DNA from: Streptococcaceae bacterium ESL0729
Lineage (GTDB): Bacteria > Bacillota > Bacilli > Lactobacillales > Streptococcaceae
DNA length: 64,000 bases
NCBI GenBank assembly: GCA_029391995.1
Contig: CP113924.1
Span: 1-64,000, forward strand
Reading direction: 5' to 3'
Below are positions 2,763 to 51,440 of this stretch, in pieces. How positions within the stretch are numbered: position 1 is the first letter of the stretch; every line of letters starts with the position of its first letter. A program made the position numbers and the translations under genes. Under the pieces are notes generated by a model. The model ran no database searches. It saw nothing but the letters and a program-made list of their open reading frames with translations, and had not been told where the DNA came from.

Positions 2763-5700
2763 ATGAAGATAATTTATACGGATATATACAATGATTTAAC
2801 AGGCGAGCTCATTAGGAGGGCCAAGGAGATTATGAATCAGGGAAAGAAGATTTTTTACCTGGTTCCATCATCCCTCTCTTTTGAAAAGGAGAAGGAAATC
2901 CTTGAAGCTTTTTCTGAGGGCAGGGATACTGCTCTTTTTGATTTAACGGTTTCCCGCTTTAAGCAACTGCCCTGGTATTTTTCAAAGTCGTCGACCTATG
3001 AAGACAAAATTGAACTTACCAAGGTTGGAAAAACCATGCTTTTTAAAAAGATTATTAAAAGTTTTTCCAAAAAAGAGCTGCCCCTTTATTTCTCGATGAA
3101 TTCTAGTGCACCTTTCCTTGATTCACTAGTAGATTTACACCAAGAAATGGAAAAATCTAATCTGACGAGTCAAGATTTACTGTCAAGTCAAGATGATGAA
3201 AAAATGAGAGAGTTAGCAAAAATTATCGATTGCTTTAATTTAGAGCTTGCTGAAAAATATGCTAACTATTCTAAGCTTGATAGCTTCATTGACGATCTTG
3301 TAAATGACAAATTTACTAATAATTTACAGGATTTGGTTATTGTAATCGATGGTTATTCTAGGTTTTCAGCTGAGGAAGAAAGACTTATATCAGTGTTAAG
3401 TCAAAAGGTTTCAAGCCTTATAATAGGTACATATGCAAGCAAAGAATCCTTTACAAGCACCTTCTTACAGGGAAGTGTCTATCAAAATTCAGTAGAGATG
3501 ATGCTTAGATTCAAGAATTATTTTTCAGCAGAACTTGAATATTTTGTAAATGATGATGTAAATCCAATCTTTACTCAAATTTCTAAAGCTTGGGAGAATG
3601 AAAATGACCCAACTTCGACAAAAACATATAATCTCAAGCTAGAAAATCTTGAAAGTGAACGTGTAAAGCTTTGGCAAGCTGTAAACCAAAAAGAAGAGAT
3701 TGAATATGCAGCCAAGGAAATTAGACAACTTGTTAGTAAAGGTGTTCGCTACAAGGATATTGAAGTTTTAGTTGGTGATTCAGATAATTATCAAATAAAA
3801 TTGGAACAAATTTTCTCCATGTATGAAATTCCAATCTTTTATTCCAATGAAGAGTCGATGCGAGATCATCCGCTCATTACTTTAATTGAGAATATTATCA
3901 GGCTTAAGCGTTATAACTATAATTTAAATGACGTTATCAATCTCTTGAAGGCTCAGATCTATTTTCCCCTTCCTTATAATTTAGATGATGTCTATGATTT
4001 TGAATTCTACCTGGCAGCAAATAATATTAATGGAAGAAAGAACTACCTTAGTGACTTTACAAGTATTTTTGACCAGGATGATCTTTTTAGGATAAATGAG
4101 CTGAGAGAAGGACTTTTTGGGGAAAATTCTCCCTTACAAAAAATAACTACTTATAATAGAAGAAAACTTGCAAAAAATGTCGTAAAAGACTTTAAAGATT
4201 TCCTAAAAGATGCCTCAGTTATCCAGATTATGGACAGGTTATACACAGAAGCTGAGGATAACAATGACTTTGCCACAGCAAATCGCCACCAACAGGTGTG
4301 GGATTTGATGCTTCTTAGTATGGAAGAGTTTTTGGCAGTTTTTGATGGGCAAAAGCTAACCATGGAAGAGTTCCTAGACCTGCTTTACTCAGGTCTTGCA
4401 GCAGCTACTTACCGAGGTATTCCAGCTAATGTTGATGTTGTAAAGGTTAGAGACTGTGGGCTTGTTGAGCCTAGGAGTTCTAAATATGTCTATGTTTTAG
4501 GTCTTAGCCAAAATAACTTTCCTAAAAGTAAAACAAATACAACCCTATTATCTGATGATGACAGGCTAAAAATTAATGAATCTTTAAAAGATAATAACAG
4601 GCCTGGGGATAATGTTAGTAAGTTTATTGATCAATTGAGCCAAACAAGTAGTGCTAAGAATATTTATAATGCCCTATCCCTTTTTAATTCTGCAACAGAA
4701 AAGTTAGTTTTGTCTTATCCACAGGTGTATGATTCTAGCCAGGAAGATTTTTCTCCCTATCTTAAGTTTTTGGTGGATATGGGGATAAAAGTCCAGGTAA
4801 AAGGTGGAATAAATCTTGCGTCTGGTCTTGAGGAGATAGGTAATTATCCGGGTCTTTTAGCTAATATTGGTAAGTTAGAGCGTTTGATGCAAGACGAAAC
4901 ATCTCTTAAGGCCAAGGATTCGTCCACAAGATTAGCCTTCTGGCGGAGTTTGACAAGGATTTTAAAAAATAATCCCCAATATAATAAGATTATTGAGGGA
5001 GCAAGGGATGAAATAAAACCAAGTAAAATTTCAAAGGAGGTAGTGGATAGTTTTTACAAGGATAAGATATATGCCTCAGTTTCTTCATTTGAGAACTTTT
5101 ATAATTGCCAATATAAGTACTTTATTAACAATACTCTACTATTAAAAGAACTTGAAACCTTGTCACTTGATTCTAGGATTTCTGGAAACTACTTTCATGA
5201 AGTTTTTGAACGCTTAATGCTTATTGGGCCTAACTCTCAAAATTTTGATAAGAGCCTTAAGGCTTCATTAAAGGAGGTCTATTCAGAAAGAAATTACCGC
5301 TACTATTTTCAAAATGAAACGGGGAAATATCTTTATCAAAATCTAATTGATATTATTGAGCAGACATCAACCATGCTCTTAAGTGTTGTAAAAGAGGGCA
5401 ATATCAGTCCAGAGAAGTTTGAGGAGACATTTGGTTTTCCACAATCTAGGCTTACTGATTATTCGGTTAAAATTGATGAAAATCACGACTTAAAATTAAG
5501 AGGTAAGATTGATAGAATTGACAAGATATCAGATAAAATCGGAATCATTGATTATAAGTCGGGTAATTTATTCTTTGATTTGAATAAGGCCTTTAGTGGT
5601 CAAAGTTTACAGTTTATGACTTATTTAGATATCCTAAGAAGGAATTATTCAAGTGATATTTGGGGTGCAAGCTACCTAAGGCTACAAAATCCAGAATTTA

Positions 5701-39567: not shown

Positions 39568-39596
39568 TTGACGATAATCTAAATTAAATATATAAT
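39568..39596 (+). promoter_or_regulatory. Promoter of the trpS T-box transcript
   Basis: TTGACG (39568-39573), a 17-base spacer and TATAAT (39591-39596) make a near-consensus sigma-A promoter with transcription starting about 39603. Confidence 0.85.
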
Positions 39597-39602
39597 TTCG
39601 TT

Positions 39603-40868
<1,266 letters not shown>

Positions 40869-44107: not shown

Positions 44108-44313
44108 AGGCATAGAAGAGGTACTGGAATGTACGAACTAACTCATCTTTTTTGACCGACTAAATCGTATTGCTTAGGGATTCGACGACATCTTACAGTA
44201 TGCATACCGTACATCCGGGAGCGACTTTAGTAAGAGCAAGAAGCCCACCTTGTCTATTAGGCGGGTTCAATACACGGGTTAGTATCCGGCATTCAATCAG
44301 TGCCTTGTTTTTT
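44108..44313 (+). ncRNA. ssrS: Probable 6S RNA
   Basis: A roughly 200-base untranslated region closes with AGGCA (44108) and TGCCT (44305) then a T-run. Nested pairings GAATG/CATTC, ACTAACTC/GGGTTAGT and GTATTG/CAATAC give one long interrupted hairpin with a large internal bubble, as in 6S RNA, which mimics an open promoter and binds RNA polymerase. It has its own promoter. It is not tmRNA, RNase P RNA or SRP RNA by conserved elements. Assignment rests on fold and neighbourhood beside tRNA genes. Confidence 0.6.
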
Positions 44314-44451: not shown

Positions 44452-44541
44452 TCGTAAAATCTCAGTTAGCTGGGTTTTTTTTGTATTTAGTTGTTATTAA
44501 TATTATATTTAAATTATAGAATTATTTTGGAGGATATCGAC

Positions 44542-45864
44542 GTGAAAGATATAACATTCGAAGAAGCAATAGATAATATAAAAAATATACCCGTAGAATT
44601 GGAACCTCTATCTCTGTTTGATGTTAAAAGCTTGCTTTTTGATTGGTATATAGAAGGGAAAGAAAGTAATTGCTTATCTCAAGAATATGGCATAGTTGAT
44701 AGATTTTATTTATTATTCTCAAAAGTGAATTTTCCTTCGGGTTGGAATTGTAGCCGTTGTGATGAAGAACTATTGGGATCTTTTCCATCAAAGACTTCAT
44801 TAATTTATAAATTAGGAAAAATAGAGCCATCATCTAAATTGAGTTTTAATGATGTTATAGGAAGATGTAAAAATTGTGGTCATATAGAGGAATCATCATG
44901 TACGTGTATGTACTGTGTAGCTGAAAGGAATCGTTTGTTGGATGAAAAGTATATTGCTGTAAAAAATATAGAACCTTCAATTCCAACCTTCGAACTTGAT
45001 GATTTATGCATTGGTGATTACATAGACATGATTTCCTGGTTAAGGACATCATGGTCAAGTGATATGACTTATGTGGAGTCATTTGATTCAAGAGATGTAA
45101 GTATCGAGGATAGAATTTATAATGATTTTAGTAAGGAGCTAGAAGTTATAGATAGGCTCTGGGAGCAAGATTTCATTACTGTCGATTCGAGTAGTCCAAT
45201 TTCAGCATTTTCCTATAAAAGGCAAGATGGAGTATTACAAGTTAAAAGTTTTTTTATCAAAAGTGTAAACTGGAAGTTGAGAACGGCTTTCGAATCGGTG
45301 TCGAAGCATCGGTTCCTTTACCCTAATTGGGGAAAATATTTTAGAGGGGAATGTTTTCATGACAATTTAATGAACCCAATAGTTCAGCAAATTGCATATG
45401 ATAATGTTCAGGATTTATATTCCCTTTGGAAAAATGCAGTTCTTGATGAAGCTATCGAATATTTCAAATATAAATGCAAAGAATTGGGTTTAGATGCAGG
45501 GGCAGGAATAAATCCAGGGGAAAAAACCATAGCTATGTTCAAAAATCTTTTAGAACGCTGGACATTAAGTGACGTGTTTTATTTTATTTGGTCTGCTAGC
45601 AGAGACGCATTAGCCTATAAAGTAAGTGCAGGGGTATCTTCTGCACAAGCTGCCAATTCTATTAAGGGAAAAATTGAACGTCTTTCTACCAGAGCAGACC
45701 AGAATAACTGGACTCTTAAGGAATTTGAGAGGATTAAAGATTTACCATTGTCTATCGCACCTTATATACTGTATTGCGAAATTCTTCAACTTCCACGAGA
45801 AGGTTTGCATACTGTACCGAATGTGGAATATATTTATAATAAATTTTATCCAGAACTACTTTAA
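44542..45864 (+). CDS. Unrecognised Cys-rich accessory protein
   Basis: I do not recognise this 440-residue protein. The GTG at 44542 follows GGAGG by eight bases; a longer reading from TTG 44491 overlaps the tRNA terminator. Visible are three cysteine clusters that could hold zinc: C70-x2-C73, C109-x2-C112 and C120-x-C122-x2-C125. A soluble, helix-rich C-terminal half follows (WTLSDVFYFIWSASRDALAYK). No signal or membrane segment is seen. Its codon use and low GC differ from neighbours. It lies directly after tRNA-Lys and before a broken ABC gene, so it is likely acquired; a defence or phage-related role is possible but not shown. Confidence 0.75.
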   Translation: MKDITFEEAIDNIKNIPVELEPLSLFDVKSLLFDWYIEGKESNCLSQEYGIVDRFYLLFSKVNFPSGWNCSRCDEELLGSFPSKTSLIYKLGKIEPSSKLSFNDVIGRCKNCGHIEESSCTCMYCVAERNRLLDEKYIAVKNIEPSIPTFELDDLCIGDYIDMISWLRTSWSSDMTYVESFDSRDVSIEDRIYNDFSKELEVIDRLWEQDFITVDSSSPISAFSYKRQDGVLQVKSFFIKSVNWKLRTAFESVSKHRFLYPNWGKYFRGECFHDNLMNPIVQQIAYDNVQDLYSLWKNAVLDEAIEYFKYKCKELGLDAGAGINPGEKTIAMFKNLLERWTLSDVFYFIWSASRDALAYKVSAGVSSAQAANSIKGKIERLSTRADQNNWTLKEFERIKDLPLSIAPYILYCEILQLPREGLHTVPNVEYIYNKFYPELL

Positions 45865-45879
45865 TAAATGTATACTTAA

Positions 45880-46014
45880 AGTAAGATAATCCTTTTCACC
45901 TCCCATAATCTATCTGAGGTTTTTGATATCAGTGATGAGGTCTATTTGTTGACGAGAAGTTCCCTTGATAGGATTTCTAGTTTGAAGGAAGCTCGTGAGG
46001 CCATCTTGCATTGA
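45880..46014 (+). pseudogene. C-terminal remnant of an ABC transporter ATPase
   Basis: Translation of this stretch gives KIILFTSHNLSEVFDISDEV and continues about 20 residues to a stop at 46012-46014. The TSHN H-loop followed by a short tail is the end of an ABC ATPase after Walker B. No start codon, P-loop or signature remains; a stop codon lies just upstream at 45877. The rest of the gene was presumably lost when the preceding accessory gene arrived. Confidence 0.7.
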
Positions 46015-46151: not shown

Positions 46152-46337
46152 ATGGAAACATTACGTGATGGACTAAAGGAAAACCGTGAATCTTTTGACC
46201 GTGCTAAGGAAAAAAGACATGAAGAAACAACAATTGATATTAATCGTAAACATGTGGCTGAAGAAACCGCCCGTAAAAAAGAAAAACATGAAGAGCGTGA
46301 AGTTGTAAGGCGTGCCAAGGAAGAAGAAAAAGATTAA
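46152..46337 (+). CDS. Small highly charged helical protein
   Basis: The 61-residue protein is more than half Glu, Lys and Arg and is predicted to be one long helix (ENRESFDRAKEKRHEETT...). AATGGAGG is well placed before ATG, it has its own promoter, and a strong terminator follows. Function unknown; the composition resembles stress-related or nucleoid-like small proteins, which is only a resemblance. Confidence 0.7.
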   Translation: METLRDGLKENRESFDRAKEKRHEETTIDINRKHVAEETARKKEKHEEREVVRRAKEEEKD

Positions 46338-46464: not shown

Positions 46465-47916
46465 ATGTCTTTTTCGACATTTTTAAGTATTATAACGGCA
46501 CTAATTACCATTAATTCGATTCTTGCAATTATTACCATTTTTAGAAAGCCAAGATCGATCGCAAGTATCTTTGCCTGGCTCATGGTTCTTGTTTTTCTAC
46601 CCGGTATCGGCTTTTTCACCTACCTTTTTCTAGGCCGGGGGATTGATAAAACAACAGTCCACAGGTTTGAGGATGAAAATAGGGAAGACTTAAGTCATAT
46701 CGCAGCCAAGATTGCACAAAATAATAGTAAGTTTAAGAAGAAGGAGATGAATCCTCAGGAGCGTCAGCTGAAACGGTACTTCAACAATGTAGAGCGAACT
46801 CCCTTGTGCCGAGGTAATGACGTTAAATTCTTCTTGGACGGTCAGTCAAAGTTTAAGGCTCTTTTTGAGGATATAAGACGCGCCAAAAGTAGTGTGCACG
46901 TTGAGTACTATGCTTTTTTCCCCGATAAAATCGGAACAATCTTTAGGGACCATCTGATTGATAAGGCCCGTGAAGGTGTGGAGGTCAGAGTGATTTATGA
47001 CCCCTGGGGAGGGCATACAAGGAGAAGTTTCTTTAAACCCCTTGAAGAGGCAGGAGGTAAGGTAATTCCCTTTATTACCGCTCGGGACGTCCTTAGAAAT
47101 ACTAGGCTTAACTACCACCTCCACCGCAAAATAGTAGTCATTGATGGCCAAATTGGTTGGACTGGTGGTTTTAATGTGGGAGACCAGTATATTTATGGGA
47201 GTAAAAAATTTGGTTTTTGGCGGGATACTCACGGAAGGATTACGGGGACTGGGGCCTTTGGTCTCCAGGAAACCTTTATTCGTGACTGGAATGTGTCAGT
47301 CAAAAGGCCTGAGGATAAGCTTAAAAGGCTTGATCAGTATTTTGTGGTTCCCAAGGAAGGAACAGGAGATGTTGACGTTCAGATTGTGTCAAATGGGCCA
47401 GAAAATCCAAGTAAGGTTTTAAGGACAGGATTTATCAAGATGATTATGGATGCAGAAGATTATATTTGGATTCAATCTCCTTATTTGATACCAGATGATC
47501 CCATGATTACAGCCCTCGTTTCTGCTGCCAAATCAGGGGTTGATGTAAGAATTATGATTCCTGACATGCCAGATCACCCTTTTATTTTTAGGGCAACCCA
47601 GTACTATGCCAACTTCCTCCATAAACACGGGGTAAAAATTTACAACTATACCAATGGTTTTATTCATTCTAAGACCTTGGTAACAGATGATAAGCTGGGT
47701 GTTTTTGGGACCAGTAATCAAGATATTAGAAGCTACGAGCTTAATTTTGAGATGAGTGCCTTTTGCTATGATGAGGATATTGCTAGGCAGATGGCTGAGA
47801 CCTTTAAAAATGACATTAAGAAGTCTGAGCTTTTAACGGATGAGATTATCGCCAATCAGTCCCTCTGGTTGAGGTTTAGACAAAATTTCTCAAGGCTTTT
47901 AAGTCCAATATTATAG
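46465..47916 (+). CDS. cls: Cardiolipin synthase
   Basis: Cls joins phosphatidylglycerol molecules to make cardiolipin. The 483-residue protein has two N-terminal transmembrane helices (about residues 5-25 and 35-55) and two phospholipase-D HKD motifs: HRKIVVIDGQIGWTGG near residue 220 and HSKTLVTDDKLGVFGTSN near 401. AAAAGGGGGATGAT precedes the ATG. It converges with dusB through a bidirectional terminator. Confidence 0.95.
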   Translation: MSFSTFLSIITALITINSILAIITIFRKPRSIASIFAWLMVLVFLPGIGFFTYLFLGRGIDKTTVHRFEDENREDLSHIAAKIAQNNSKFKKKEMNPQERQLKRYFNNVERTPLCRGNDVKFFLDGQSKFKALFEDIRRAKSSVHVEYYAFFPDKIGTIFRDHLIDKAREGVEVRVIYDPWGGHTRRSFFKPLEEAGGKVIPFITARDVLRNTRLNYHLHRKIVVIDGQIGWTGGFNVGDQYIYGSKKFGFWRDTHGRITGTGAFGLQETFIRDWNVSVKRPEDKLKRLDQYFVVPKEGTGDVDVQIVSNGPENPSKVLRTGFIKMIMDAEDYIWIQSPYLIPDDPMITALVSAAKSGVDVRIMIPDMPDHPFIFRATQYYANFLHKHGVKIYNYTNGFIHSKTLVTDDKLGVFGTSNQDIRSYELNFEMSAFCYDEDIARQMAETFKNDIKKSELLTDEIIANQSLWLRFRQNFSRLLSPIL

Positions 47917-51356: not shown

Positions 51357-51440
51357 CGGTATTGTTTACCACCATTTTTTGGCCCCGGAAACCGAAAAAT
51401 AATAAGTGCAAGGAACGGCACACACGTAAACAAAGACAGA
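51357..51440 (+). ncRNA. L13 ribosomal protein leader
   Basis: The 5' leader of rplM carries a GC-containing structured stretch (GGTATTGTTTACCACC, then GGCCCCGGAAACC and a GTGCAAGGAACGGCAC hairpin) in the position of the Firmicutes L13 leader, which mediates autogenous control by L13. Identification is from position and general pattern. Confidence 0.6.

Follow-up and report, generated by a model that had tools for sequence, protein, structure and literature searches.

One kind of defence system consists of a single gene lodged in a tRNA-linked hot spot. TnsD/TniQ target selectors are DNA-binding proteins with zinc and HTH parts, and the 3′ side of glmS is the Tn7 site. DnaD, a primosome protein of the Bacillota (PF07261 region), has a winged-helix-like domain and, after it, a helical bundle. 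One member of the family described here is in print as a hypothetical protein. This is the 401-aa ORF32 of the Psychrobacter plasmid pP62BP1 (locus L013), listed with no function in the sections of the publication cited here (PMC3346939). It differs from the protein analysed below in adjoining an XRE gene, oriV and repB, and in being without the second metal site. Narrow word searches of the literature found nothing on the family, which does not prove that it is unpublished.

The window is the whole 64,000-nucleotide stretch of DNA that was analysed, and the coordinates of its features are collected in the table. An earlier note on this DNA had described a 440-residue protein directly 3′ of a tRNA-Lys, and the gene was found as described. 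It begins with GTG at 44542, 90 bp 3′ of the tRNA-Lys, and ends with TAA at 45862-45864, with all 440 codons intact (ORF listing). A Shine-Dalgarno sequence, GGAGG, graded strong, is present at 44529-44533, 8 bases upstream of the GTG. The same note had called the composition atypical; this stands in a mild form. GC of the longest ORF at the gene is 0.331 (0.337 from the GTG), against a mean of 0.387 (sd 0.039) for the 42 window ORFs of at least 150 codons, among which its codon-usage distance ranks 13th. Upstream of the tRNA-Lys, the RF00013 match is full-length (44118-44307, 42.9 bits, E 1.7e-7), under the gathering score of 46.4; this likely 6S RNA gene is strongly conserved in the three other genomes of the genus. 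The terminator consensus scan gave 2 sites versus 1.3 expected in shuffles, and the hairpin at 44461-44474 has a sequence unlike that of the congener G002. Elsewhere in the window, a T-box leader (39589-39808, +) and a ribosomal protein L13 leader (51358-51436, +) were detected above their Rfam gathering scores.

Table. Features at and around the tRNA-Lys slot, in window coordinates.
Feature	Position	Strand	Basis
Likely 6S RNA (ssrS) gene upstream of tRNA-Lys, fixed left flank	44118..44307	+	Rfam RF00013
tRNA-Lys (CTT), left border of exchanged segment	44379..44451	+	ARAGORN, Rfam; same order in L059-L061
Exchanged segment, 1427 bp, standing for 1774 bp of the G002 ABC operon	44460..45886	+	BLASTN breakpoints, local alignments
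Terminator-like short hairpin behind tRNA-Lys, then T8	44461..44474	+	Consensus scan
Family gene, 440-aa protein	44542..45864	+	ORF; alignment; AlphaFold model
Codons of metal-site region C70..C125 (CxxC, CxxCxH, CxCxxC)	44749..44916	+	Invariant columns of A6; counts in 25 members
ABC ATPase gene remnant, last ~42 of 203 codons, without own start	45887..46014	+	DNA 84% identical to L059; translation
Small charged 61-aa ORF, right flank of site, conserved in G002	46152..46337	+	
Presumed cardiolipin-synthase-like gene (named by sequence likeness), right flank, fixed in 4/4 genus genomes	46465..47916	+	

The slot was compared with the corresponding loci of the three other genus genomes. Against G002 (locus L059), DNA identity by BLASTN is 89% up to 44459 and resumes at 84% from 45887. 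In G002, an intact permease-like ORF of 376 aa and an ATPase of 203 aa (PF00005, E 2.4e-14) come after the tRNA-Lys; next are the small ORF and presumed cardiolipin-synthase-like gene also found in the window. The ATPase remnant in the window aligns with L059 from its base 3787 onward (84% DNA identity). The earlier note had counted the last 45 codons of an ABC ATPase there; 44 open codons follow the family gene, ending at 46014, and approximately 42 of them align with the C-terminus of the G002 protein. A replacement at a tRNA-linked site had been proposed, and the comparison bears it out: the operon of permease and ATPase is whole in G002, and the window still carries its tail end. In G001 and G003 the slot is occupied by three other genes, which we take from sequence likeness to be HAD-phosphatase-like, GDPD-like and MFS-like (L060:2470-5493, L061:2626-5649).

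Searches of the three other genus genomes did not detect the window segment, with 40 of the 80 and of the 83 candidates scored in G001 and G003, respectively; a protein search in which all candidates were scored agrees that the gene is in none of them. The ABC permease is present in one of the four genus genomes, with a good match only in G002 among nine genomes searched and weak matches (26-27%) in G009. The ABC operon is therefore itself accessory, and the event was an exchange of cargo at a variable site rather than the loss of a core gene. The tRNA-Lys slot is a variable site, the ABC operon is an earlier cargo whose tail was left as a scar, and the comparison shows that a single gene of a horizontally spreading family replaced most of that operon. 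Four congeners thus have three contents beside the likely 6S RNA and tRNA-Lys genes, a clean case of cargo exchange in which the scar of the lost operon can still be read. Long direct repeats were not found at the segment ends by local alignments and a repeat search, and attachment-site repeats were rejected, the longest shared word being 11 bp. The gene would have entered through recombination, with joints at the tRNA-Lys end and within the ATPase gene, and not through an integrase that makes direct repeats.

The earlier note could name no known family for the protein, and the library searches gave the same outcome. PADLOC and NCBIfam gave no matches, the best Pfam E was 0.38, and PHROGs matches had E of at least 0.097 (best 0.097). 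In PADLOC-DB 2.0.0, no family was matched by the window protein at E <= 1 or by seven homologues at E <= 0.1. At the level of sequence, the intact gene, the real replacement, the accessory status and the absence of the family from the libraries searched are certain.

Twenty-four further members were collected from five phyla (Bacillota, Pseudomonadota, Actinomycetota, Bacteroidota and Spirochaetota), 15 of them on plasmid records, together with one broken copy and four matches in other genomes. The plasmid members came from tblastn, in which a fourth query brought no new ones; a genome scan with a three-sequence alignment gave nine members (L029 being an N-terminal piece) and the broken copy L028. 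Identity to the window protein is 20-28% for the 15 members aligned directly. Three queries matched none of 50,697 phage records, and two queries found no relative in viral_contigs. Weak matches in G165 (E 8.9e-4) and G126 (E 3.3e-4) were treated as spurious; neither appeared in the search of 398 phylum genomes.

An ordinary housekeeping protein, such as a ribosomal zinc protein of the bL32 type, that had gone unrecognised through divergence was also considered. Weak bL32/bL32m matches do fall at the ribbon (E 0.38, 0.0064, 0.034); they span the Cys region only, and the Pfam one is below its cut-off. The earlier note would have been refuted by a gene that is core in all relatives; the gene is not core, occurring in its own genome only among 98 relatives, and likewise only there among 398 phylum genomes. 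Among 398 genomes of the class it was found in six, including its own genome, L117, L118, L120 (a C-terminal piece) and L121, and was missing from the other 392. A housekeeping protein is very unlikely and was rejected on this absence from relatives and class genomes.

A tree was made from 22 rows with a midpoint root, leaving out L016, L019 and the L029 piece. Its topology departs from taxonomy. Plasmids of Methylophaga and Psychrobacter cluster with those of Streptomyces (96/95, midpoint root), Trichococcus clusters with an Exiguobacterium plasmid and Kurthia (100/100), and Brachyspira and Saprospiraceae lie among Bacillota (91/93, not starred), Brachyspira grouping weakly with Clostridium (82/66). 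The window protein sits on a long branch without placement.

Along the protein, an HTH-like N-terminus is followed by two Cys/His sites, a winged-helix-like domain (about 150-245) and a helical bundle (about 286-415). The first ~60 residues were judged HTH-like by eye; PF02796 (HTH_7) reached only E 0.13, in one of nine members. Three zinc-binding Cys clusters had been proposed. They are present as motifs (CxxC, CxxCxH, CxCxxC), but their conservation suggests two metal sites. In the A6 alignment of nine sequences, C70, C73, C109, C112, H114, C120, C122 and C125 are invariant, which suggests predicted sites at C70/C73/C109/C112 and H114/C120/C122/C125, the pairing of ligands being deduced from the alignment. 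The ribbon CxxC..CxxC occurs in 23 of the 25 members and the second site CxxCxH..CxCxxC in 16 of 25, so that the conserved Cys/His ligand sets by which zinc-binding proteins are recognised are present, with the metal predicted. The two members without the ribbon (L016, L019) both have a different, longer N-terminus. The family protein likely binds metal and nucleic acid. No catalytic motif was recognised by eye in alignments A3 and A6, and an enzyme was provisionally rejected on this informal inspection.

AlphaFold models were obtained for the window protein (pLDDT 77.3, pTM 0.59) and for the last 281 residues of the homologue L023 (pLDDT 90.7, pTM 0.87), the latter comprising the winged-helix-like part and the helical bundle. 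Foldseek returned nothing at E <= 0.001 in PDB or BFVD. In the VIA ranking, DnaD heads the list for both models. For the window model, 9a5c_B gave Z 8.0 over 140 residues with an rmsd of 19.2, and 2i5u gave Z 6.9 with 72 of 77 residues at 2.3 A; for the better L023 model, DnaD reached only Z 5.7, level with AAA-lid bundles. The rows under DnaD (Z 6.2 or less) include winged helices, AAA-lid bundles and helical repeats of designed proteins, and winged-helix chains recur among the structural neighbours of the middle domain. The family and DnaD may share the order of winged-helix-like domain then bundle, but the family has an additional HTH-like and zinc N-terminus, and sequence support for a relationship is absent. 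PF07261 (DnaB_2) gave no match at E <= 1 within HMMER's filters for the window protein or any of the nine A6 members, although the same model detects DnaD in 19 of 20 relatives. An hhalign comparison of the family with DnaD of the relatives (recovered sequences of 150-290 aa) gave a probability of 1.5% over 32 columns. Membership of the DnaD family is not supported by these profiles, and with Z 5.7 for the better model DnaD is taken as an analogy at most.

This top structural row for both models is one of the points consistent with a rival explanation, in which the protein is a replication or maintenance accessory of plasmids or phage-plasmids, a near-origin DNA binder, perhaps DnaD-like, whose chromosomal copies are stranded or domesticated. 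The neighbourhoods of several copies fit such replicon maintenance better than defence, since the gene lies near replication genes in Psychrobacter, Thiothrix and Saprospiraceae. In all four Psychrobacter plasmids the order is fixed as gene, XRE gene and rep, the starts of the gene and of rep being 844-866 bases apart. In the parts of the pP62BP1 publication cited here, oriV is placed between the XRE gene and repB, upstream of repB, and the XRE gene is discussed as possibly part of the REP region (PMC3346939). The second neighbour in Thiothrix is a replication gene. In L026 (Saprospiraceae), D5_N/DUF5906 primase-helicase-like and DUF6371 genes precede the family gene on its own strand. L006 is carried by a plasmid that also encodes phage tail, holin and amidase proteins, and has ParA and integrase-like genes next to it; reading of the L022 sequence points to the same neighbours, with PF00589 at only E 8.1e-5, below cut-off. 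The origin-linked copies are the best argument against a defence role. Against the replication explanation, the copies in the window, Trichococcus and Kurthia are whole, although no adjacent replication gene was recognised; the Psychrobacter plasmids are one related group; and the DnaD profile searches gave no support. On balance we regard a replication or maintenance role as possible but unlikely.

Product names within 6 kb of the family gene were used to count defence genes, with distances on the Psychrobacter plasmids measured around the circle. They were present at six of the 15 plasmid loci (L012, L013, L015, L016, L017, L018) and were of restriction-modification, BREX, AbiEii and Dnd kinds. 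As controls, 10 segments (282 kb) elsewhere on seven of these plasmids contained none; four of these seven plasmids carry defence genes near the family gene. Toxin-antitoxin and DUF4238 genes were left uncounted on both sides, as were RES and SLATT genes near the family gene and lone methylases, group II intron reverse transcriptase, Fic and PLD-like genes in the controls. Three further loci have defence neighbours, namely L020 (type I R-M, KwaB-like), L025 (MmeI-like) and L117 (AbiJ_NTD4, DNA methylase), giving nine of 27 loci, with none recognised at 18. The 27 loci comprise the 15 plasmid loci, L020-L027, L117, L118, L120 and L121, leaving out the window, L028 and L029, and were read to unequal depth. 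The PADLOC neighbour scan (leaving out L028, L029 and L117-L121) tallied proteins and not loci, and its families are those among the top 25 listed; SoFic, DrmD, PDC-S45 and other models near L020-L027 had no locus placement and were uncounted. At E 1e-10, PADLOC also matched proteins of the six control segments scanned, so enrichment for defence is not established. At L020:8296-9875, between the type I R-M genes and the family gene, a KwaB-like protein (PF16162, E 1.2e-6) and a membrane-protein-like ORF are possibly a Kiwa-type pair.

The family gene resembles tRNA hot-spot defence systems in being solitary, patchy in distribution and exchanged at a tRNA, and at some loci it lies among restriction, BREX or Abi genes; it differs in matching no PADLOC model, and a protective role here is putative. 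Defence is somewhat more likely than replicon maintenance, the balance being tipped by intact copies that stand alone at chromosomal exchange sites. The reading we prefer, at a probability of about 40%, is that the gene is a single-gene mobile cargo encoding a DNA-binding protein that acts as a defence factor against phages or plasmids. More generally, and tentatively, an undescribed mobile stand-alone DNA-binding family (HTH, double zinc site, winged helix, bundle), common to plasmids, phage-plasmids and chromosomal hot spots across five phyla, may block competing mobile elements without an enzymatic domain. The protein would hold two metal ions and bind nucleic acid through its HTH-like N-terminus, zinc ribbon and winged helix, while the C-terminal bundle may serve pairing or partner contacts. 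In the weakest step, it would act alone against phages or plasmids, attaching to DNA that invades or replicates and preventing replication or expression; this binding-and-blocking mode is proposed because no conserved catalytic motif was recognised. If true, an unannotated family joins the genes with which mobile elements fight one another or run their own replication. Phage challenge, hinted at by the earlier note, is a reasonable though unproven choice as the right test.

A transcription regulator of some host or island function, or cargo drifting without benefit, would have no direct role in defence or replication. All recognised modules are of nucleic-acid-binding kinds, the neighbours vary widely (arsenic genes, for example, lie within about 7 kb in L005, L019, L118 and L120), and broken or partial copies occur (L028, L120), as would suit such a gene. 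Against this, the window copy is unbroken, its Shine-Dalgarno sequence is strong and its metal ligands are conserved; no constant target gene accompanies the family in the loci read, and we consider this explanation improbable. The arsenic-resistance genes of L120 were identified by eye, and arsR is the divergent neighbour in L118.

Links to mobile elements are frequent in the family. The start of L007 comes 35 bases after an integrase gene. Duplicated tRNA-Ser genes, integrases and a zeta-toxin-like gene adjoin the L117 copy; at L117:7180-8400, two similar tRNA-Ser(TGA) genes bracket the zeta-toxin-like gene, with integrase genes on both sides. L021 immediately follows the 3′ end of a glmS-like gene with SIS and GATase domains, and L020 is 3′ of one at some distance, with restriction and KwaB-like genes between. 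With these two relatives and its zinc and HTH parts the family is like TnsD/TniQ; unlike them, it has no TniQ match in Pfam, and transposase genes were not recognised by eye in the L020 and L021 ORF lists. CoiA-family competence-protein genes were noted within about 6 kb in three plasmids: L003, L012 and L014 (L094).

A simple Cys/His pattern suffices to recognise most members of the family. In the Pseudomonas aeruginosa plasmid homologue WP_153183989.1 (L007:7752-9107) the annotated start is approximately 116 codons too late; read from its true frame, the protein is 451 aa long and contains the HTH-like part and both metal sites.
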